Part shown: positions 4,255-13,503 of the stretch, one piece after another | How positions within the stretch are numbered: the first letter of the stretch is position 1 | Layout: every line of letters starts with the position of its first letter | Source of the DNA: Myxococcaceae bacterium | Lineage (GTDB): Bacteria; Myxococcota; Myxococcia; Myxococcales; Myxococcaceae | Reading direction: 5' to 3' | Assembly: GCA_019694595.1 (NCBI GenBank) | Contig: JAIBBQ010000057.1 | Coordinates: 1 to 33,747, forward strand | DNA: 33,747 nt | Notes under the pieces: model-generated | The model's database searches: none | What the model saw: only the letters and a program-made list of their open reading frames with translations | Told to the model about the DNA's origin: nothing | Position numbers and translations under genes: made by a program

Positions 4255-4271
4255 GGCAACGAGGCGTTGCC
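4255..4271. promoter_or_regulatory. TetR operator copy 1 (tetR promoter)
   Basis: GGCAACGAGGCGTTGCC is a perfect 7-bp inverted repeat with a 3-bp spacer. It sits 6 bp upstream of the -10 hexamer and 19 bp upstream of the TetR start. The same 7-3-7 palindrome recurs twice upstream of the membrane protein gene at 6416 and was not seen elsewhere in the window. Autoregulation by the adjacent TetR protein is inferred. Confidence 0.75.
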
Positions 4272-4277
4272 GTGGCC

Positions 4278-4283
4278 TAGGCT
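4278..4283 (+). promoter_or_regulatory. -10 element of tetR, leaderless type
   Basis: TAGGCT is followed by exactly 7 nt and then ATG, which places the likely transcription start on the A of the start codon. The operator occupies the -35/spacer region, consistent with repression. Confidence 0.55.
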
Positions 4284-4290
4284 CTCGCCC

Positions 4291-4926
4291 ATGACCCGGA
4301 AGACCCGCCGGACCCGCGGCGTGCTCGGCGGCCGCAGCGACGAGGTGGTGCGCCGCGTGCTCGACGCCGCACTCGTCGAGCTCGCCAGCTCCGGCTACGC
4401 CGCCTTCCGCATGGAGGCCGTCGCCGAGGCAGCCGAGGTCAACAAGACCACCGTCTACCGGCGCTGGCCCGCCCGGGCACAGCTGATCGCCTCGCTCCTC
4501 GAACGGCTCCAGGCGCCGCTGCGCGCGCACGCCTTGCCTGACACCGGCTCCCTCGAAGGCGACCTGGTCGAGGCGTTCACCCACCGCGCCCGCGTCGCGC
4601 GGACCCTCGAAGGCCGTGCCTGGCGCAGGCTCCTCGCCGAGCGGCTCGACCCCGAGCTCGCGCCGCTGCTGCGCACGGCCATCGACGGCCGCGGCGGCGA
4701 ATGGAAGGCGATGGTCACCCGCGGCATCGGCCGGCGCGAGCTGCCCGAGGGCACCGACGTGCAGCGGCTGTTCGACTTCACCCGCGCCATCGTCGATTCG
4801 CGCGCGCCCGAGCACGTCGACGGGCGCTGGGTGCAGCAGGCGGTGCGCACGGTCCTCGCCGGCGCCCGGGTGGGCACGCTCCGGTCGAGCCCCGGCACCG
4901 CGTCGCGGACCGGGCGAGGGCGCTGA
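4291..4926 (+). CDS. TetR/AcrR family transcriptional regulator
   Basis: 211 residues from ATG 4291; the frame is open upstream, but the start is fixed by the promoter pattern and by homology. The N-terminal helix-turn-helix is clear: VVRRVLDAALVELASSGYAAFRMEAVAEAAEVNKTTVYRRWPARAQLI (residues about 15-60), with the diagnostic NKTTVYRRWP recognition helix. The C-terminal ligand and dimer domain (about 75-200) resembles the TetR_C_11-like group: LEGRAWRRLLAERLDPELAPLLR and FDFTRAIVDSR. It probably represses its own promoter and the unit at 6416-7554 through the three matching palindromes. It is convergent with the metallopeptidase gene (28-bp gap). The ligand is unknown. Confidence 0.92.
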   Translation: MTRKTRRTRGVLGGRSDEVVRRVLDAALVELASSGYAAFRMEAVAEAAEVNKTTVYRRWPARAQLIASLLERLQAPLRAHALPDTGSLEGDLVEAFTHRARVARTLEGRAWRRLLAERLDPELAPLLRTAIDGRGGEWKAMVTRGIGRRELPEGTDVQRLFDFTRAIVDSRAPEHVDGRWVQQAVRTVLAGARVGTLRSSPGTASRTGRGR

Positions 4927-4954
4927 ACCGGAAGCGCTCGCGGCGGCGACCGCC

Positions 4955-5818
4955 TCAGGGCTCGGCGGCGAAGGTGTCGCAGGCGGCGATGGTGCCTTCG
5001 CGCATGCCGGTCTTGAACCACTTCACCCGCTGCGCCGAGCTGCCGTGGGTGAAGGACTCCGGGCTCACCGCGCGCCCGGCGCCGCGCTGCAGGGTGTCGT
5101 CGCCGATGGCGGTGGCCGCCTTGATGGCCTCCTCGACGTCACCTTCCTGGATGAAGGTGCGCAGCTTCTGTCCCCGGTTGGCCCAGACGCCCGCGAAGCA
5201 GTCCGCCTGCAGCTCGAGCCGCACCGAGAGCGCGTTGCGCTCCGCCTTGCCGAGCGCCGTGCGCTGCGCGTGTACCCGGTCGCTGGTGCCGAGCACCTTC
5301 TGCACGTGGTGGCCGACCTCGTGGGCGATGACGTAGGCCTGCGCGAAGTCGCCCGGCGCACCGAAGCGCTGGCTCAGGAGGTCGAAGAAGCCGACGTCGA
5401 GGTACACCTGCTGGTCTCCCGGGCAGTAGAACGGCCCGGTCGCCGCCGTCTCGAAGCCGCACGCCGAGTCGACGGTGTCGCGGAAGAGCACCAGCGTCGG
5501 TCGGGGGTACGTCTTGCCCTGCGCCTGGAAGACCGAGTCCCAGGCGTCCTCGGTCGAGCCGAGCACCGCCCGCACGAAGTCCGAGGCCTGGTCGCTCACC
5601 GGCCCGCCGGTGGTGCGCGGGCCCGGCGCGGTCCGCTGCTGCTGCTGCGCGTCCTGCATCGCCTGCAGCACCTCCACCGGGCTCAGGCCGAGCAGCTTCC
5701 CCACCACCAGCGCGACCACCACTCCACCCAGCGTCAACCCCACGCCGGCCCGCCGGCCACCGCCGCCACCACGGCGGTCATCCACGTTGTCGGAGCGTCG
5801 CTGGCCTGAGAGGTCCAT
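4955..5818 (-). CDS. Neutral zinc metallopeptidase, YpfJ/KPN_02809 family
   Basis: 287 residues from ATG 5818. The frame runs further upstream, but family proteins begin with this short hydrophilic M-D-...-R-S-D-N-V-D-D-R segment. A Gly/Arg stretch is followed by one membrane helix (about 25-44), so the catalytic domain is anchored and probably periplasmic. The zinc site is HEVGH at 166-170 (AYVIAHEVGHHVQKVLG). The third ligand is expected within RLELQADCFAGVWAN. Two Cys in the SACGFETAATGPFYCPGDQQVYLD block are typical of the family. Length and motif order match PF04228 members. The physiological substrate is unknown. It lies between tetR and the VOC gene on the opposite strand and has no palindrome upstream. 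Confidence 0.92.
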   Translation of the reverse strand: MDLSGQRRSDNVDDRRGGGGGRRAGVGLTLGGVVVALVVGKLLGLSPVEVLQAMQDAQQQQRTAPGPRTTGGPVSDQASDFVRAVLGSTEDAWDSVFQAQGKTYPRPTLVLFRDTVDSACGFETAATGPFYCPGDQQVYLDVGFFDLLSQRFGAPGDFAQAYVIAHEVGHHVQKVLGTSDRVHAQRTALGKAERNALSVRLELQADCFAGVWANRGQKLRTFIQEGDVEEAIKAATAIGDDTLQRGAGRAVSPESFTHGSSAQRVKWFKTGMREGTIAACDTFAAEP

Positions 5819-5878
5819 GGGACCGCACCATGCCAAAGTCCACGGCGGCGGAGCATGAAGCCGACCTGGAGAATTCCG

Positions 5879-6328
5879 ATGACCCTCAAGCGCATGGACA
5901 ACGTCGGCATCGTGGTCGAGTCGCTCGACACCGCCATCGAGTTCTTCACCGAGCTCGGGCTCTCCCTGGAAGGCCGCACCACCATCGACGGTGAGTGGGC
6001 TGGTCGAGTCACCGGCGTGCGTGGCCAGCGCGTCGAGATCGCCATGCTCCGGACGCCCGACGGCCACGGGAGAATCGAGCTCTCCCGGTTCCTCGCGCCG
6101 AAGGTGGTCGCCGACCACCGGACGGCGCCGGTCAACGCGCTCGGCTACCTGCGGGTGATGTTCGCAGTCGACGACCTGGAGGCGACCCTGGCCAAGCTGC
6201 GCCCGCTCGGCGCCGCAGTGGTCGACGAGGTGGTCGAGTACGAGGGGGTCTACCGCCTCTGCTACGTCCGCGGCCCCGAAGGCATCCTCGTCGGGCTGGC
6301 GGAGGAGCTGGGTGGCGGCCGGGTATGA
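5879..6328 (+). CDS. VOC-superfamily (glyoxalase/bleomycin-resistance fold) protein
   Basis: 149 residues. ATG 5879 is preferred over ATG 5855 because a GGAG lies 6-7 nt upstream and because the MTLKRMDNVGIVV start is usual in this group. Two beta-alpha-beta-beta-beta modules are visible. The first spans residues 1-60: NVGIVVESLDTAIEFFTELGL ending EIAMLRTPDG. The second spans about 75-145: LGYLRVMFAVDDLEATLAKLRPLGAAVVDEVV ending YVRGPEGILVGLAEEL. Metal ligands His/Glu may be present (E near the end, H of DGHGRIEL). Related proteins are annotated as glyoxalases, but the substrate is not predictable. Its stop is one base before operator copy 2 of the TetR regulon. Confidence 0.88.
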   Translation: MTLKRMDNVGIVVESLDTAIEFFTELGLSLEGRTTIDGEWAGRVTGVRGQRVEIAMLRTPDGHGRIELSRFLAPKVVADHRTAPVNALGYLRVMFAVDDLEATLAKLRPLGAAVVDEVVEYEGVYRLCYVRGPEGILVGLAEELGGGRV

Positions 6329-6329
6329 T

Positions 6330-6346
6330 GGCAACGGCGAGTTGCC
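6330..6346. promoter_or_regulatory. TetR operator copy 2
   Basis: GGCAACGGCGAGTTGCC has 6-bp perfect arms (GGCAAC/GTTGCC) in the same 17-bp frame as copies 1 and 3. It overlaps the candidate -35 element of the 6416 unit. Confidence 0.7.
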
Positions 6347-6371
6347 TTTGAAGATGGTGGCTCGCTAGGGT
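6342..6371 (+). promoter_or_regulatory. Promoter of the membrane protein/methyltransferase unit
   Basis: TTGCCT (6342-6347), an 18-bp spacer and TAGGGT (6366-6371) form a plausible sigma70-type promoter. Operator copy 2 covers the -35 and copy 3 begins 10 bp after the -10, near +1. Confidence 0.5.
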
Positions 6372-6380
6372 TCCTTTGAT

Positions 6381-6397
6381 GGCAACGATTCGTTGCC
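6381..6397. promoter_or_regulatory. TetR operator copy 3
   Basis: GGCAACGATTCGTTGCC is a perfect 7-3-7 palindrome 51 bp (centre to centre) from copy 2, about five helical turns. It precedes the gene at 6416 and would block initiation or early elongation. Confidence 0.75.
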
Positions 6398-6415
6398 AAG
6401 ACAAGGGAGTCTCGA

Positions 6416-6751
6416 ATGGGTTGGCAGCTCGCGGTGGCGTGCTTCTTCGGCGGGGTCTTCCTGGCCAATGCCACGCCGCACTTCATCGCCGGGGTGTCCG
6501 GCAGGGCGTTTCACACGCCGTTCGCCACGCCCCCGTTCCGAGGGGTCTCGCCGCCGTCGGTCAACGTGCTCTGGAGCCTCTTCAACCTCGCGGTGGCGTA
6601 CGTGCTGCTGGTGGTGGTCGCCGGCCTCGAGCTCGGCAAGGTGGCCCAGGTCGCGCCGGCGGCGGCGGGCTTCGGGCTGATGGCGCTCTTCGTCGCGCGC
6701 TCGGTGACCAGGATGCAGCGCGAGGCGGCAGCGCCCGCGGCCCGCCAGTGA
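6416..6751 (+). CDS. Small membrane protein, TetR-regulon target
   Basis: 111 residues from ATG 6416, with AAGGGAGT as Shine-Dalgarno 7 nt upstream. There are probably three membrane segments: about 4-22, 50-71 (NVLWSLFNLAVAYVLLVVVAG) and 80-97. A conserved-looking loop, ANATPHFIAGVSGRAFHTPFA, contains His and Phe residues. I recognise this as a conserved small integral-membrane type but no function is established. It overlaps the methyltransferase gene by GTGA, so the two are translationally coupled. Two palindromes matching the one at tetR flank its promoter, so derepression by the TetR ligand is the likely control. An export or membrane-modification role is only a guess. Confidence 0.8.
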   Translation: MGWQLAVACFFGGVFLANATPHFIAGVSGRAFHTPFATPPFRGVSPPSVNVLWSLFNLAVAYVLLVVVAGLELGKVAQVAPAAAGFGLMALFVARSVTRMQREAAAPAARQ

Positions 6752-7554
6752 CGCCCTCGCTGTCCCTCGACAGCCGCGCGCTCGCGGAGGCGTACGACCG
6801 CTCGAGCGCGCTCCAGCTGGAAGGGGGCCAGCGCCTGGTGGAGCGGCTCCACCTCGGCCCCGAAGCCCGGGTGCTCGACGTGGGCTGCGGCACGGGCCGA
6901 CTCACCTGCTGGCTCGCCGCCCGTCTGGGCCCCAAGGCCCGGGTGGTGGGCATCGACCCGCTCGAGCACCGCATCGCGGTCGCGCGCTCGCACGGGGGCA
7001 CGGCACGCTTCGAGGTCGGCCGCGCGGAAGACCTGAGCGCCTTCCAGGACGCGAGCTTCGACACGGTCTGTCTGGCGTCGGTGCTCCACTGGGTGACGGA
7101 CAAGGCGCGCGCGCTCGCCGAGGCGCGCCGGGTGCTGCGGCCAGGCGGGACGCTGGCGGTGACCACGCTGCCCGACGAGCTCTCGGGGGTGAGCACCGTC
7201 TCCAGCGTGCTCAGGAGCGTGCTGCGGCGGGCGCCGTTCGTGGAGCACCTCGCGCCGCCGGGCCCCCGGCGGGGCTCCACCTCGACCGAGCTGGTCGCCC
7301 TGGCGCTCGAGAGCGGGCTCGAGCTCGTCGAACTCCAGGTGGCGCCCACCGAAAGCCGCCACGAGAGCGGCGCGGCCTTCGTGGAGCTCGCGGAAGCGAG
7401 CGCGTTCGGCAACCTGCTCGGTTCCGTTCCCGCCGAGCTGCGCACCTCGCTCCGCGATGAACTCGCCGCCGCGTTCGAGACCCAGCGCGGGCCGGCCGGC
7501 GTCGTGGTGCGCGGCTGGGAAGTTCGCCTCGTGGCCCGCTGCCCAGGCGAATGA
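6748..7554 (+). CDS. Class I SAM-dependent methyltransferase
   Basis: 268 residues from GTG 6748, which overlaps the preceding stop as GTGA. The frame is open further upstream, but the overlap and homology set this start. Motif I is RVLDVGCGTGRLTCWLA (about residues 42-57), motif II VVGIDPLEHRIAVAR, then GRAEDLSAFQDASFDTVCLASVLHWV and the post-motif EARRVLRPGGTLAVTT. This is the UbiE/Methyltransf_11 pattern for small-molecule substrates. Co-transcription with the small membrane protein under the TetR palindromes suggests the pair acts on one compound, perhaps detoxifying or modifying a hydrophobic molecule. That link is inference. Confidence 0.9.
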   Translation: MTPSLSLDSRALAEAYDRSSALQLEGGQRLVERLHLGPEARVLDVGCGTGRLTCWLAARLGPKARVVGIDPLEHRIAVARSHGGTARFEVGRAEDLSAFQDASFDTVCLASVLHWVTDKARALAEARRVLRPGGTLAVTTLPDELSGVSTVSSVLRSVLRRAPFVEHLAPPGPRRGSTSTELVALALESGLELVELQVAPTESRHESGAAFVELAEASAFGNLLGSVPAELRTSLRDELAAAFETQRGPAGVVVRGWEVRLVARCPGE

Positions 7555-8462: not shown

Positions 8463-9992
8463 ATGCCCACGCCGTTCTCGCCGTCGTTCCTCGGCGGTGA
8501 GGCGCGCGCGCGGGCTTTCCTGCCCGACGACTTCCGTGACGGGAGTCGTCGGGCGGAGCACGTCCGTCTGGCTGCGGGGCGCGCGGTCTCGCCTCGCACG
8601 CTGGGCGCCCTGAAGGCGCTCTCCGCCCGGCTGCCGGCGAGCCCGGCGCGCGAGGCCCACCTCGAGCGACTCGGCGCTGGACGCGCTGCGGTGGTGGTGA
8701 CCGGTCAGCAGGTGGGGCTCTTCACCGGGCCGCTCTACGCGTTCGCCAAGGCAGCCTCGGCCATCGCCGTGGCGCGCGCTCTCTCGGACGAGACCGGCGT
8801 GCCCTGCGTGCCGGTGTTCTGGCTGCAGAGCGAGGACCACGACTTCCCGGAGATCGACCACTGCGTGGTGCAGCCGCGCAAGGGCGAGCCGGTGCGGCTG
8901 TCGCTCCCCGCACCGCCGGGTGATGGGCGGCGCAGCGTCTCCTGCCTCGCGCTCGGTCCCGAGGTGAGCCAGGCGCTCGATGGGCTCGCCCAGGCCCTCG
9001 ACGGACTTCCCCACCGCGACGAGGTGCTGGCGCTCCTGCGCACCCACTACCGCCCGGGGGCCGGCTGGGTGGACGCCTTCGCCGGCGTGATGGCCGAGGT
9101 GTTCGCCGCCGAAGGGCTGGTCTTCCTGGACCCGCGCGACCCCGCGCTCATGCAGGAAGTCCTCCCGCTCCACCGGCGCTGCTTCGCCGAGCACCAGGCG
9201 CTCAGCCGCGCCCTGCTGGAGCGCGAGGCCGCCCTGGAGGCCGCGGGCTTCGAGGTGCAGGTGCGGGTGCGGCCCGACGTGGCGCTGCCCTTCGTGCACG
9301 CGGCGGGGCGCGACGGCCCGCGCGAGCGCATCGCGCCGCAGGCGCTCCCGGCCGGTGAGGTGTGTTTCTCCAGCTCGGCCCTGCTGCGGCCGCTGGTGCA
9401 GGACACGCTCCTGCCCACCGCCGCCATCGTGGGAGGCCCCGGCGAGCTCAACTACTTCGCGCAGGTGGGGCCGCTGTACGCGCACCTGGGACTGCCGATG
9501 CCCATGGTGCTGCCGCGGGCGCGCTTCCGCGTGCTCGATGCCCGCACCCGCGACGACCTGGCCGCGCTCGGGCGCACCGCCGCCGAGCTCGAGGTGCCAC
9601 GCGCGCAGGCGCTGGCCAGCCTGGGCGGCACGAGCGGCGAGCCCACTCCCGACGCCGTGGAGCGCGAGCTCCTGGCCGCGGTGGAGCCGGTGCTCGCCTC
9701 CTTGCCCAAGGACCCCCGCCTCGGCGACGCGGTGGAGCTCACCCGGGGCACCGTCGCCCGCGCGGCTGCGCGTCTCAAGGCGCGGTGGGCCTTCGCGCGC
9801 GGCGAGCGCGACCAGGTGCTGGCGCAGCGCGTGGGGCGGCTGCAGACCGCGCTCTTTCCGCTCGGTCAGCCACAGGAACGCGTCTACGGCCTGCCGTCGA
9901 TGGCTGCTCGCCATGGCCTGGCGGAATTCAAGGCGATGACCTTCGCCAAGCTCTCGCCGTTCTCCGGCGTTGTGGAGGAACTCCACCCGTGA
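8463..9992 (+). CDS. bshC: Bacillithiol biosynthesis cysteine-adding enzyme BshC
   Basis: 509 residues from ATG 8463, close to the usual length of about 540. BshC is assigned to the last step of bacillithiol synthesis, adding cysteine to GlcN-malate. Family signatures are present in order: VVVTGQQVGLFTGPLYAFAKAASAIAVAR (about 77-105), PVFWLQSEDHDFPEI, ILGGPGE-like IVGGPGELNYFAQVGPLYAHLGLPMPMVLPRARF, and a helical coiled-coil region before the C-terminal end. The N-terminal region is shorter and GC-biased. Its stop overlaps the bshA start (GTGA), so expression is coupled. Confidence 0.93.
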   Translation: MPTPFSPSFLGGEARARAFLPDDFRDGSRRAEHVRLAAGRAVSPRTLGALKALSARLPASPAREAHLERLGAGRAAVVVTGQQVGLFTGPLYAFAKAASAIAVARALSDETGVPCVPVFWLQSEDHDFPEIDHCVVQPRKGEPVRLSLPAPPGDGRRSVSCLALGPEVSQALDGLAQALDGLPHRDEVLALLRTHYRPGAGWVDAFAGVMAEVFAAEGLVFLDPRDPALMQEVLPLHRRCFAEHQALSRALLEREAALEAAGFEVQVRVRPDVALPFVHAAGRDGPRERIAPQALPAGEVCFSSSALLRPLVQDTLLPTAAIVGGPGELNYFAQVGPLYAHLGLPMPMVLPRARFRVLDARTRDDLAALGRTAAELEVPRAQALASLGGTSGEPTPDAVERELLAAVEPVLASLPKDPRLGDAVELTRGTVARAAARLKARWAFARGERDQVLAQRVGRLQTALFPLGQPQERVYGLPSMAARHGLAEFKAMTFAKLSPFSGVVEELHP

Positions 9993-11089
9993 GAGTGGGC
10001 ATCGTCTGCCACGCCAGCTTCGGCGGCAGCGGCGTCATCGCCACCGAGCTCGCGCTCGCGCTGGCCGAGCACGGTCACCAGGTGCACCTCGTCGCCGCCC
10101 ACGAACCGCCGCGCCTGCCGGCCACGCGGCCGGCGGGGCTCACCTTCCACGCCGTCGGCAGCCCGGTGCACCCTCTCTTTCCCCACGGGGAGTTCACCCT
10201 CGCGCTCGCCTCCGCGCTCGCCGAGCTCGGCCCCCGGCTCGACGTGCTGCACGTGCACTACGCGATTCCCCTGGCGACCAGCGCGGTGCTGGCGTGCGAG
10301 CTCGCGGGCCCGGGCGCGCCCAGGCTGGTGACCACCGTGCACGGCACCGACGTGCTCACCATCGGCCAGGAGCGCGCCTTCCGCCCGCTGGTGAAGCAGG
10401 CGCTCGAGCGCAGCGCGCTGGTGACGGCCCCGTCGGCCTGGCTCGCCCAGCAGGCGGTGGCGGGCTTCGCTCTCGCGCGCGCCGTGCAGGTGGTGCCCAA
10501 CTTCGTCGACTCCGGGCGCTTCTGTCCGCCCGAGGCGCGGCCGGCCGGGCTGCCGCGGCTCACCCACAACTCCAACTTCCGTGCGCTCAAGCGCGTGGAA
10601 GACGTGGTGCAGGTGTTCGACCGCGTACGGCGCGTGGTCCCCTGCGAGCTCGAGCTCCTGGGCGACGGGCCGGAGCGGCCCAGGGTCGAGGCGCTGGTAC
10701 GCGCGCTCGGGCTCCGGGCGCAGGTGCACTTCGCGGGGGAGACCTCCGACGTGGCCCCTCATCTCAAGGCGAGCGACGTCTTCCTCCTCCCGAGCGAGGT
10801 CGAGAGCTTCGGCCTCGCCGCCCTGGAAGCGATGAGCTGCGGCGTGCCGGTGGTGGCGAGCGCGGTCGGCGGGGTGAGCGAGGTGGTGCGCGACGGCGTC
10901 ACCGGCTTCCTCCACCCCGTGGGCGACGTCGACGCCATGGCCGCGTCCACCGTGCGGCTCCTGCAGGACCGCGCGCTCCACCGGACCATGTCGCGCGAGG
11001 CCCGCAGCTGGTGTACCGCCCACTGGCAGCGCGCGCCGGTGGTCGCCCGCTGGGAAGCGCTGTACCGCACGCTGCTGGAGACTCCATGA
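9989..11089 (+). CDS. bshA: N-acetyl-alpha-D-glucosaminyl L-malate synthase BshA
   Basis: 366 residues from GTG 9989; family members are about 375. BshA is a GT4 glycosyltransferase that joins GlcNAc from UDP-GlcNAc to L-malate, the first step of bacillithiol synthesis. Signatures specific to BshA are [67 protein letters not shown] and [15 protein letters not shown]. The GT4 donor motif is [22 protein letters not shown]. The order bshC-bshA-PIG-L is operonic: it overlaps bshC by GTGA and the next gene by ATGA. Confidence 0.93.
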
Positions 11090-13503
11090 GCCGTCGCACC
11101 CTCGCCCTGATGAGCTTGCTCACGTCCACGATGGTCTTCGCCGGTTCCGCGCCGCCCCGCCGCGACGGCGCCCAGCTGCTGCAGCAGGTGCGCAAGCTCT
11201 CGGTGCTGGGCAGCGCGCTCTTCGTGGCCGCCCACCCCGACGACGAGAACACCCGCCTCTTGGCCACCCTGGCCAACGAGACGCTGGTGCGCACCACCTA
11301 CCTCGCCTTCACCCGCGGCGAGGGCGGCCAGAACCTCATCGGCCCGGAGCTCGGTCCGCTGCTCGGCGTCATCCGCACCCAGGAGCTGCTGGCCGCCCGC
11401 CGCGTCGACGGCGCCGAGCAGGTGTTCACCCGCGCGCGCGACTTCGGGTTCTCCAAGAGCGTCGACGAGACGCTCGCCATCTGGGACCACGACCGGGTGC
11501 TCGCCGACGCGGTGTACGCGATTCGCGCGCTGCAGCCCGACGTCATCATCACCCGCTTCGCGCTCGAGGGCGGCGACACCCACGGCCACCACACCGCGTC
11601 GGCGCGCCTGGCGCTGGAGGCCTTCAAGGCCGCCGCCGACCCGGCGTTCCACCCCGAGCAGCTGAAGTCGGTGTCCGTCTGGCAGGCGAAGCGCATCGTG
11701 CGCAACGCCTGGGCGCCCGACGGCAAGCCCACCGGCCTTCCGCCCGAGACGCTCACCTGGGACTCGAGCCCCTACAGCCCGCTGCACGGCCTCACCTACG
11801 GCGAGCTCGCCGCCGAGAGCCGCAGCATGCACAAGAGCCAGGGCTTCGGCGCCGCGCCGCTGCACGGTCCCAACCCCGAGTTCTTCGTGCCCCTCGCGGG
11901 CGACGTGGCTCAGAAGACGCTCTTCGACGGCGTCGAGCTCACCTGGAAGCGCGTGCCCGGCGCGGAGAAGGTCGCCGCGCTCCTCGCCAAGGCGGCCCAG
12001 GACTTCAAGGTCGACGCTCCGCACAGCTCGGTGCCCGCCCTGCTGTCCGCGCTCGAGGAGCTGCGCAAGCTGCCGCGGTCCCTCTGGGTGCAGCGCAAGG
12101 AGCAGGAGCTCGTCGAGGTCATCGCCGCCTGCGCCGGGGTGTTCGTGGAGGCAGCGGCTGCGGCGCCCACCACCGTGCCCGGCGCCAAGGTCGAGGTGGT
12201 GACCCAGGCGCTGGTGCGCGCCGGCACCGCGCTCACCTTCTCGCAGGTGCGGGTGGGGGAGGCCCAGGACTCCGGCGCCAAGGCGAAGCTGCTGGTCGAC
12301 GCGCCCGCGCGGCTCACCAGCCCCTTCTTCCTCGAGCAGCCGCCCGCCAAGGGCACCTGGACGCTCGACGACACGCAGCCCTTCAACGCGCCCCAGCTCC
12401 CCGCCGCGCTGGAAGCCGAGTTCACCTTCAAGGCGGGGACGCAGAGCCTGGTGCTCAGCCGCGACGTCGTCTTCAAGTGGGTCGACCCCACCGTGGGCGA
12501 GCGCACCCGTCCACTCGAGGTGCTGCCGCCGGTGGTGGTGAAGCTGTCCGAGCCGCTCCTGGCCTTCACCGACCAGGCGCCGCGCCCGCTGGTGGTGACG
12601 GTGGTGGCCAACGCCGATGCGCAGAGCGGCTCGCTGCCGGTGACGGTGCCCGATGGCTTCACCGTGAGCCCGCCCGCCGTGGCGTGGACGCTGGCGAAGA
12701 AGGGCGACGAGGTGCAGGTGGCGCTCTCGGTCAAGCGCACCACCGCCAAGGCCGTGGGGGAACTCTCCCTCGACGCGCGCACGCTCACCCGCGTCGAGCA
12801 CGCGCACATTCCGATGCAGGTGGTGCTCGCGCCCGCCCGGGTGAAGCTGGTGCCGCTCGAGCTCAAGCGCGGCCGCACGAAGAAGGTCGGCTACATCGTG
12901 GGCGCGGGTGACGACGTGCCCCAGGCGCTGCGTCAGGCCGGGTATGCGGTCACCGTGCTCGGCGACGAGGCGCTCAAGGCCGAGAACCTCGGTGCCTACG
13001 ACGCCATCGTGGTGGGCATCCGCGCGTACAACGTCAACCCCAGGCTCATCGCCGCCTACCCGCGCCTCATGCAGTACGTGAAGGACGGCGGCGTCCTCGT
13101 CGCCCAGTACAACACCAAGAACTGGCTGAGCAGCGTGCCCGCCAAGCTGGGGCCGTATCCGCTCGAGCTGTCGCAGGACCGCGTGACCGACGAGGACGCG
13201 GAGGTCGTCTTCGCGTCGCCGAGGCACCCGGTGCTCTCTTCCCCCAACGCGCTCGGGCCGGCGGACTTCACCGGCTGGGTGCAGGAACGCGGGCTCTACT
13301 TCGCGTCGAAGTTCGACGCCCGGTACGAGACGCCGCTGTCGATGCACGACCCGGGCGAGAAGCCGCTCCAGGGCAGCCTCCTGGTCGCGAAGTCGGGGAA
13401 GGGCCGCTTCGTCTACACGGGCCTCGCCTTCTTCCGGCAGCTCCCCGCCGGCGTGCCCGGCGCGTACCGGCTCTTCGCCAACCTGCTCGACCGTGGAAGC
13501 TGA
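11086..13503 (+). CDS. Large exported PIG-L family deacetylase with C-terminal ThuA-like region
   Basis: 805 residues from ATG 11086. A signal peptide is visible (n-region SRR, hydrophobic [14 protein letters not shown], cleavage near AGSA). The PIG-L (LmbE) zinc site is [11 protein letters not shown], with AHPDDE at 49-54, and the second metal segment is [15 protein letters not shown] at about 160-172. The middle (about 350-600) is beta-rich. The C-terminal 200 residues ([59 protein letters not shown]) look like a ThuA/GATase-type fold. BshB, the GlcNAc-malate deacetylase, is a small cytoplasmic PIG-L protein; this one is three times longer and exported. It therefore probably acts outside the cytoplasm on a related N-acetyl or amide substrate. 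Confidence 0.9.

Follow-up and report, generated by a model that had tools for sequence, protein, structure and literature searches.

The locus described here raises a simple question: why does one palindrome stand three times within 2.1 kb of DNA, once ahead of a TetR-type regulator gene and twice ahead of a gene for a small membrane protein (SMP), with two other genes in between? The window, that is, the whole 33,747-nucleotide stretch that was analysed, has the following features around these palindromes.

up to 4232, + strand: nmrA-like gene (end)
4255-4271, no strand: predicted tetR operator copy, an exact match to GGCAACGAGGCGTTGCC; the half-site is also conserved ahead of orthologous tetR genes
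4278-4283, + strand: candidate -10 element of tetR, TAGGCT, read from the sequence, 7 nt before the ATG
4291-4926, + strand: tetR, 211 aa, with TetR_N and TetR_C_11 domains and the recognition helix VNKTTVYRRWP
4955-5818, - strand: neutral Zn-metallopeptidase (Zn_peptidase, PF04228)
5879-6328, + strand: VOC protein (glyoxalase/VOC)
6327-6349 (core 6330-6346), no strand: predicted operator O1, GGCAACGGCGAGTTGCC, with 6-bp arms, aligned with O1 of the orthologous loci
6342-6371, + strand: probable SMP promoter, TTGCCT (6342-6347, the right arm of O1), 18 bp, TAGGGT (6366-6371)
6378-6400 (core 6381-6397), no strand: predicted operator O2, GGCAACGATTCGTTGCC, present in the aligned orthologous regions and lying over the expected SMP transcription start
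6416-6751, + strand: SMP, 111 aa; orthologues in operator-bearing loci are 52-74% identical
6748-7554, + strand: class I SAM methyltransferase (Methyltransf_11, E 2.4e-26), GTG start

The domains found in the neighboring genes agree with the names TetR, metallopeptidase, VOC and methyltransferase given to them in the first-pass annotation. The tetR product matches both the N-terminal TetR helix-turn-helix (PF00440, 40.3 bits; cutoff 24) and the C-terminal ligand-binding domain TetR_C_11 (PF16859, 54.4 bits; cutoff 32). The tetR and SMP genes are on the same strand with about 1.5-2 kb between them, which is occupied by the Zn-peptidase and VOC genes, and the GTG start of the methyltransferase overlaps the SMP stop by 4 nt. 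The 17-bp palindrome described by the first-pass annotation at 4255, 6330 and 6381 was found at all three positions, one copy ahead of tetR and two ahead of the SMP/methyltransferase unit, with the perfect 7-bp arms reported for the copies at 4255 and 6381 and the 6-bp arms reported for the one at 6330. The VOC stop codon and O1 overlap. The three copies share the form GGCAAC-N5-GTTGCC. The proposal that this palindrome is an operator stands in so far as it is conserved, but the predicted operator is longer than 17 bp, with the half-site GATGGCAAC and a spacer of N5 rather than N3.

We favor the interpretation, with a probability of roughly 0.86, that the product of the tetR gene at 4291-4926 recognizes the palindromes as its operators, and that this protein is an autoregulated repressor of the SMP and methyltransferase genes. 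Sequence comparison shows the conservation of the sites, the orthology of the genes, the confinement of the sites to the locus, the geometry of the promoter and the correlation between recognition helix and half-site; binding, repression, the ligand and the inclusion of the methyltransferase are deduced.

The confinement of the sites is clear. Under a first-order Markov model, GGCAACN5GTTGCC is expected 0.0015 times in the window and 0.32 times in the 7.28-Mb genome, but four copies exist in the genome. Three are in the window and the fourth is within a predicted coding sequence (C86:1707), and at the genome's own rate three copies in 2.1 kb have a P of ~3e-10. The longer ATGGCAACN5GTTGCCAT, with up to two mismatches, occurs exactly three times in the genome, always at the window locus, and its reversed control does not occur. 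Random recurrence across the genome, the outcome set beforehand as refuting the operator, was not seen in a genome-wide scan. The first-pass annotation was also right that the window has no further copies: the other matches differ by three mismatches, and their number (7 versus 4.85 expected) is at the chance level. With one mismatch, GGCAACN5GTTGCC occurs 43 times in the genome versus 35 in the control, and single weak sites elsewhere in the genome therefore mean little. The window had no Rfam match to a structured RNA. The seven other GCAACN5GTTGC places in the genome were considered as further members of the regulon and rejected, since a split of six within predicted genes and one between genes is at the chance level. 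The intergenic one, GCAACAGCCTGTTGC (C164:69992), is 38 bp ahead of the start of a pirin-like gene; it is a possible fourth site, though chance expects one.

The sites are also conserved. The SMP side was sampled by a scan with an SMP alignment, using one genome per species; 500 relatives were found and 80 loci were kept. Six of these loci (L102, L103, L106, L107, L109 and L132) have a tetR orthologue (50-62% identical) divergent to an SMP orthologue, with the two less than 200 bp apart, an arrangement not found in the window. One or two GATGGCAACN5GTTGCCATC-like palindromes are located between the two genes, usually two that are ~50 bp apart, and the aligned regulatory regions have two operators and a TANNNT in common. 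Five of the six loci are placed in the Myxococcota by their tree labels, and L107, by its place, corresponds to G183, of the same phylum. The scan of relatives that the first-pass annotation had called for, then, finds the palindrome upstream of orthologous tetR and target genes in six other genomes. Of the 38 SMP genomes, the six with a complete pair contain close TetR homologues (E <1e-50), whereas the 30 whose SMPs are more distant and have no operator contain none; the best TetR match there has an E value of 5.7e-18. The best operator-like sites of the complete-pair genomes sit at the tetR/SMP locus, and the SMP-linked TetRs form one clade with the window TetR and that of relative G047 (support 100/99). 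In L105 the available DNA starts 670 bases from the SMP gene, and no site was found.

This distribution bears on a different explanation, that some other regulator (a global factor or a TetR paralogue) uses the operators and the neighboring tetR is incidental. The GCAAC half-site is common to other TetR subgroups in the relatives, and a paralogue could conceivably bind the sites as well. Genome G197 keeps one operator and the SMP gene (L104, 3900-4000), with only a tail of the last tetR codons (AVRTVIAGARAGTL) and no other close TetR in the genome. However, in each of the six complete pairs an SMP with operators comes together with the orthologous tetR, one site stands in the promoter of tetR itself, and the remaining TetR matches in the window genome are weak (best E 2.7e-5). 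We consider another regulator to be quite unlikely and attribute the sites to the neighboring TetR.

The promoter layout suggests how this TetR would act. TTGCCT and TAGGGT are a probable -35/-10 pair of the SMP gene, and a TANNNT is present between O1 and O2 in eight of the nine aligned regulatory sequences. A scan for consensus sigma-70 promoters found none for either tetR or SMP; therefore, the assignment of these elements rests on their conservation. The tetR transcript is possibly leaderless. A TetR dimer would read a pair of GATGGCAAC half-sites, each with the core GCAAC and with 5 bp between them. As O1 lies on the -35 region and O2 on the start site, with the -10 element in the middle, bound TetR would exclude RNA polymerase and the SMP-methyltransferase pair would be repressed. 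The third copy, just upstream of the tetR -10 element, would provide autorepression. A small-molecule ligand, perhaps lipophilic or xenobiotic, would bind the C-terminal domain and release TetR from the DNA, and SMP and the methyltransferase would then be induced. A role in looping was also considered for the third site and was dropped because no supporting evidence was found. Divergent TetR/target pairs with less than 200 bp between them are usually repressor and target (PMC3511530). Some members of the family, such as AtrA, are activators (PMC3511530), and the window TetR might likewise activate from these sites, or activate one promoter and repress the other. An O1 over the -35 region and an O2 over the start site is the usual geometry of a repressor, however, and activation seems very unlikely.

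The usual arrangement is a divergent tetR/SMP pair that shares its operators, and the window appears to have a split version of it. VOC orthologues in the relatives were never found beside the peptidase, tetR or SMP genes. The split may be a misassembly, since the window genome is in 394 contigs, but the reading frames of the locus are intact. If the split is real, the locus would be a case of a divergent repressor-target pair that was separated, and the presence of a separate operator at the repressor gene would point to autoregulation having been retained. Elsewhere, the unit appears to be eroding: G197 has the tetR tail described above, and G047 has what is probably an SMP remnant, detected by hhalign with a probability of 75, while BLASTP alone finds nothing.

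The first-pass annotation also proposed a regulon that skips the intervening genes. The predicted regulon amounts to one target operon plus tetR, with the methyltransferase as a presumed member, and leaves out the peptidase and VOC genes. It was placed in the unit because of two things, its 4-nt overlap with SMP and one truncated copy in L102, which likewise starts 4 nt inside SMP and diverges after ~93 residues; among 144 relatives, candidate methyltransferase orthologues had just generic similarity.

The half-site extends beyond the SMP-linked regulators. GCAAC-N5-GTTGC is found beside many TetR homologues in the relatives, often in duplicate, with 44-45 bp from one copy to the other. In the 300 bp upstream, 26 of the 32 homologues with a V[NSH]KT[TS]xYRRW helix have GCAACN5-6GTTGC, but only one of the 26 without it and two of 228 other genes do. 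The compared TetR homologues are related to each other and were found with the window TetR as the query, and because of this shared ancestry and choice of query, the Fisher p of 1e-9 overstates their independence and is indicative only. The palindromes upstream of the distant tetR homologues in L083, L085, L088-L090 and L101 have a 6-bp rather than a 5-bp spacer. The divergent neighbors, as identified by Pfam, vary: an EryCIII-like glycosyltransferase in L066 (followed there by an MFS gene), L071, L076 and L079, HlyD and MFS in L069, and a fatty-acid hydroxylase in L078, L081 and L082. The Myxococcaceae TetR_C_11 (PF16859) regulators of L066 and L071 resemble the window TetR in their GCAAC half-site, in their VNKTT-YRRWP helix and in having two sites, which are ~45 bp apart there. 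They differ in that their targets are EryCIII-like glycosyltransferase/MFS genes rather than SMP and in that they form a separate clade.

The relative G047 has a more unusual pattern. Its 23-bp palindrome GATGGCAACTNNNAGTTGCCATC exactly matches an operator of the G047 tetR. With up to three mismatches the palindrome occurs 18 times (control 0), several times at convergent gene ends or within genes; it is absent from five congeners. One could take this as a sign that the palindromes in general are chance repeats, an interspersed palindromic repeat or terminator-like hairpins instead of operators. That idea is highly improbable for the window genome, which has only three copies, all at promoters, and the absence from the five congeners and the conserved position relative to the -10 element and the genes at orthologous loci argue against it as well. 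A broader proposal would combine these patterns: a TetR_C_11 subgroup with the helix V-[NSH]-K-T-[TS]-x-YRRW reads a fixed GCAAC half-site with a spacer of 5 or 6, its targets have been exchanged, and in G047 its operator has spread as an interspersed palindrome, either through a large expansion of the regulon or because an operator has turned into a repeat. Taken as a whole, this proposal is tentative and rather doubtful. If true, SMP would belong, as its regulated member, to an uncharacterised family of membrane proteins and would have a part in a xenobiotic or envelope response.

The SMP protein has no match in Pfam or NCBIfam. Its AlphaFold2 model has three long helices (pLDDT 92) and no Foldseek match with E <0.001. 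SMR transporters such as Gdx-Clo are also helical membrane proteins of ~110 residues, but the structural resemblance to Gdx-Clo is weak (VIA-align Z 8.8, below the trust level for helical bundles; rmsd 5.0 over 85 residues), and SMP differs in having three modelled helices in place of the four-helix SMR fold, no SMR Pfam match and a Foldseek E of 6.9. The more distant SMP genes have no site and are often in isochorismatase-SMP-MFS operons. For example, SMP is between isochorismatase and MFS_3 genes in L110, L139, L144, L168, L176 and similar distant genomes, where it is annotated only as a hypothetical protein. The neighbors of these TetRs (glycosyltransferase, MFS and HlyD) and those of SMP elsewhere (MFS and isochorismatase) suggest, by association, a role in detoxification or at the envelope. 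The family is widespread and conserved and has had no name; it now has a probable regulatory context. Two loci, L020 (G065) and L019 (G028), have another repeat upstream of SMP homologues, with ATGGAC-type half-sites (e.g., TGATGGACCCGTCCATCA), which adjoins an apparent MarR-type gene. Given the different repeat and the MarR-like neighbor, SMP seems to be under other regulators in these two genomes.

Compared with known systems, the predicted switch is closest in plan to the classical TetR/tetA (PMC3511530), which also has a TetR-family repressor, two palindromic operators at the target promoter, an operator in the promoter of the repressor and a membrane protein as the target. The window differs in its operator (GATGGCAAC-N5-GTTGCCATC), in its target, a three-helix protein plus a methyltransferase, and in that repressor and target are not adjacent. 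KstR is the nearest NCBIfam model to the window TetR, with a likeness over the HTH only that does not include the C-terminal domain (35.6 bits versus a cutoff of 280). The divergent two-operator TetR layout has long been known (PMC3511530), and in mycobacteria the regions upstream of TetR genes have been searched for motifs before (PMC4482099); we found no published operator of the GCAAC-N5-GTTGC type in the open-access literature. The predicted switch is well supported and of an ordinary bacterial kind, and the recognition rule is useful. A repeat noticed by eye in one window has become a defined candidate operator with a candidate repressor, target and recognition rule. From this rule, operators can be predicted for many myxobacterial TetRs that are still uncharacterised, including some beside glycosyltransferase and efflux genes.

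Downstream of the locus, at 8463-13503, the window also has bshC and bshA (bacillithiol synthesis), both above their NCBIfam cutoffs, and then an Mca/LmbE-like gene.
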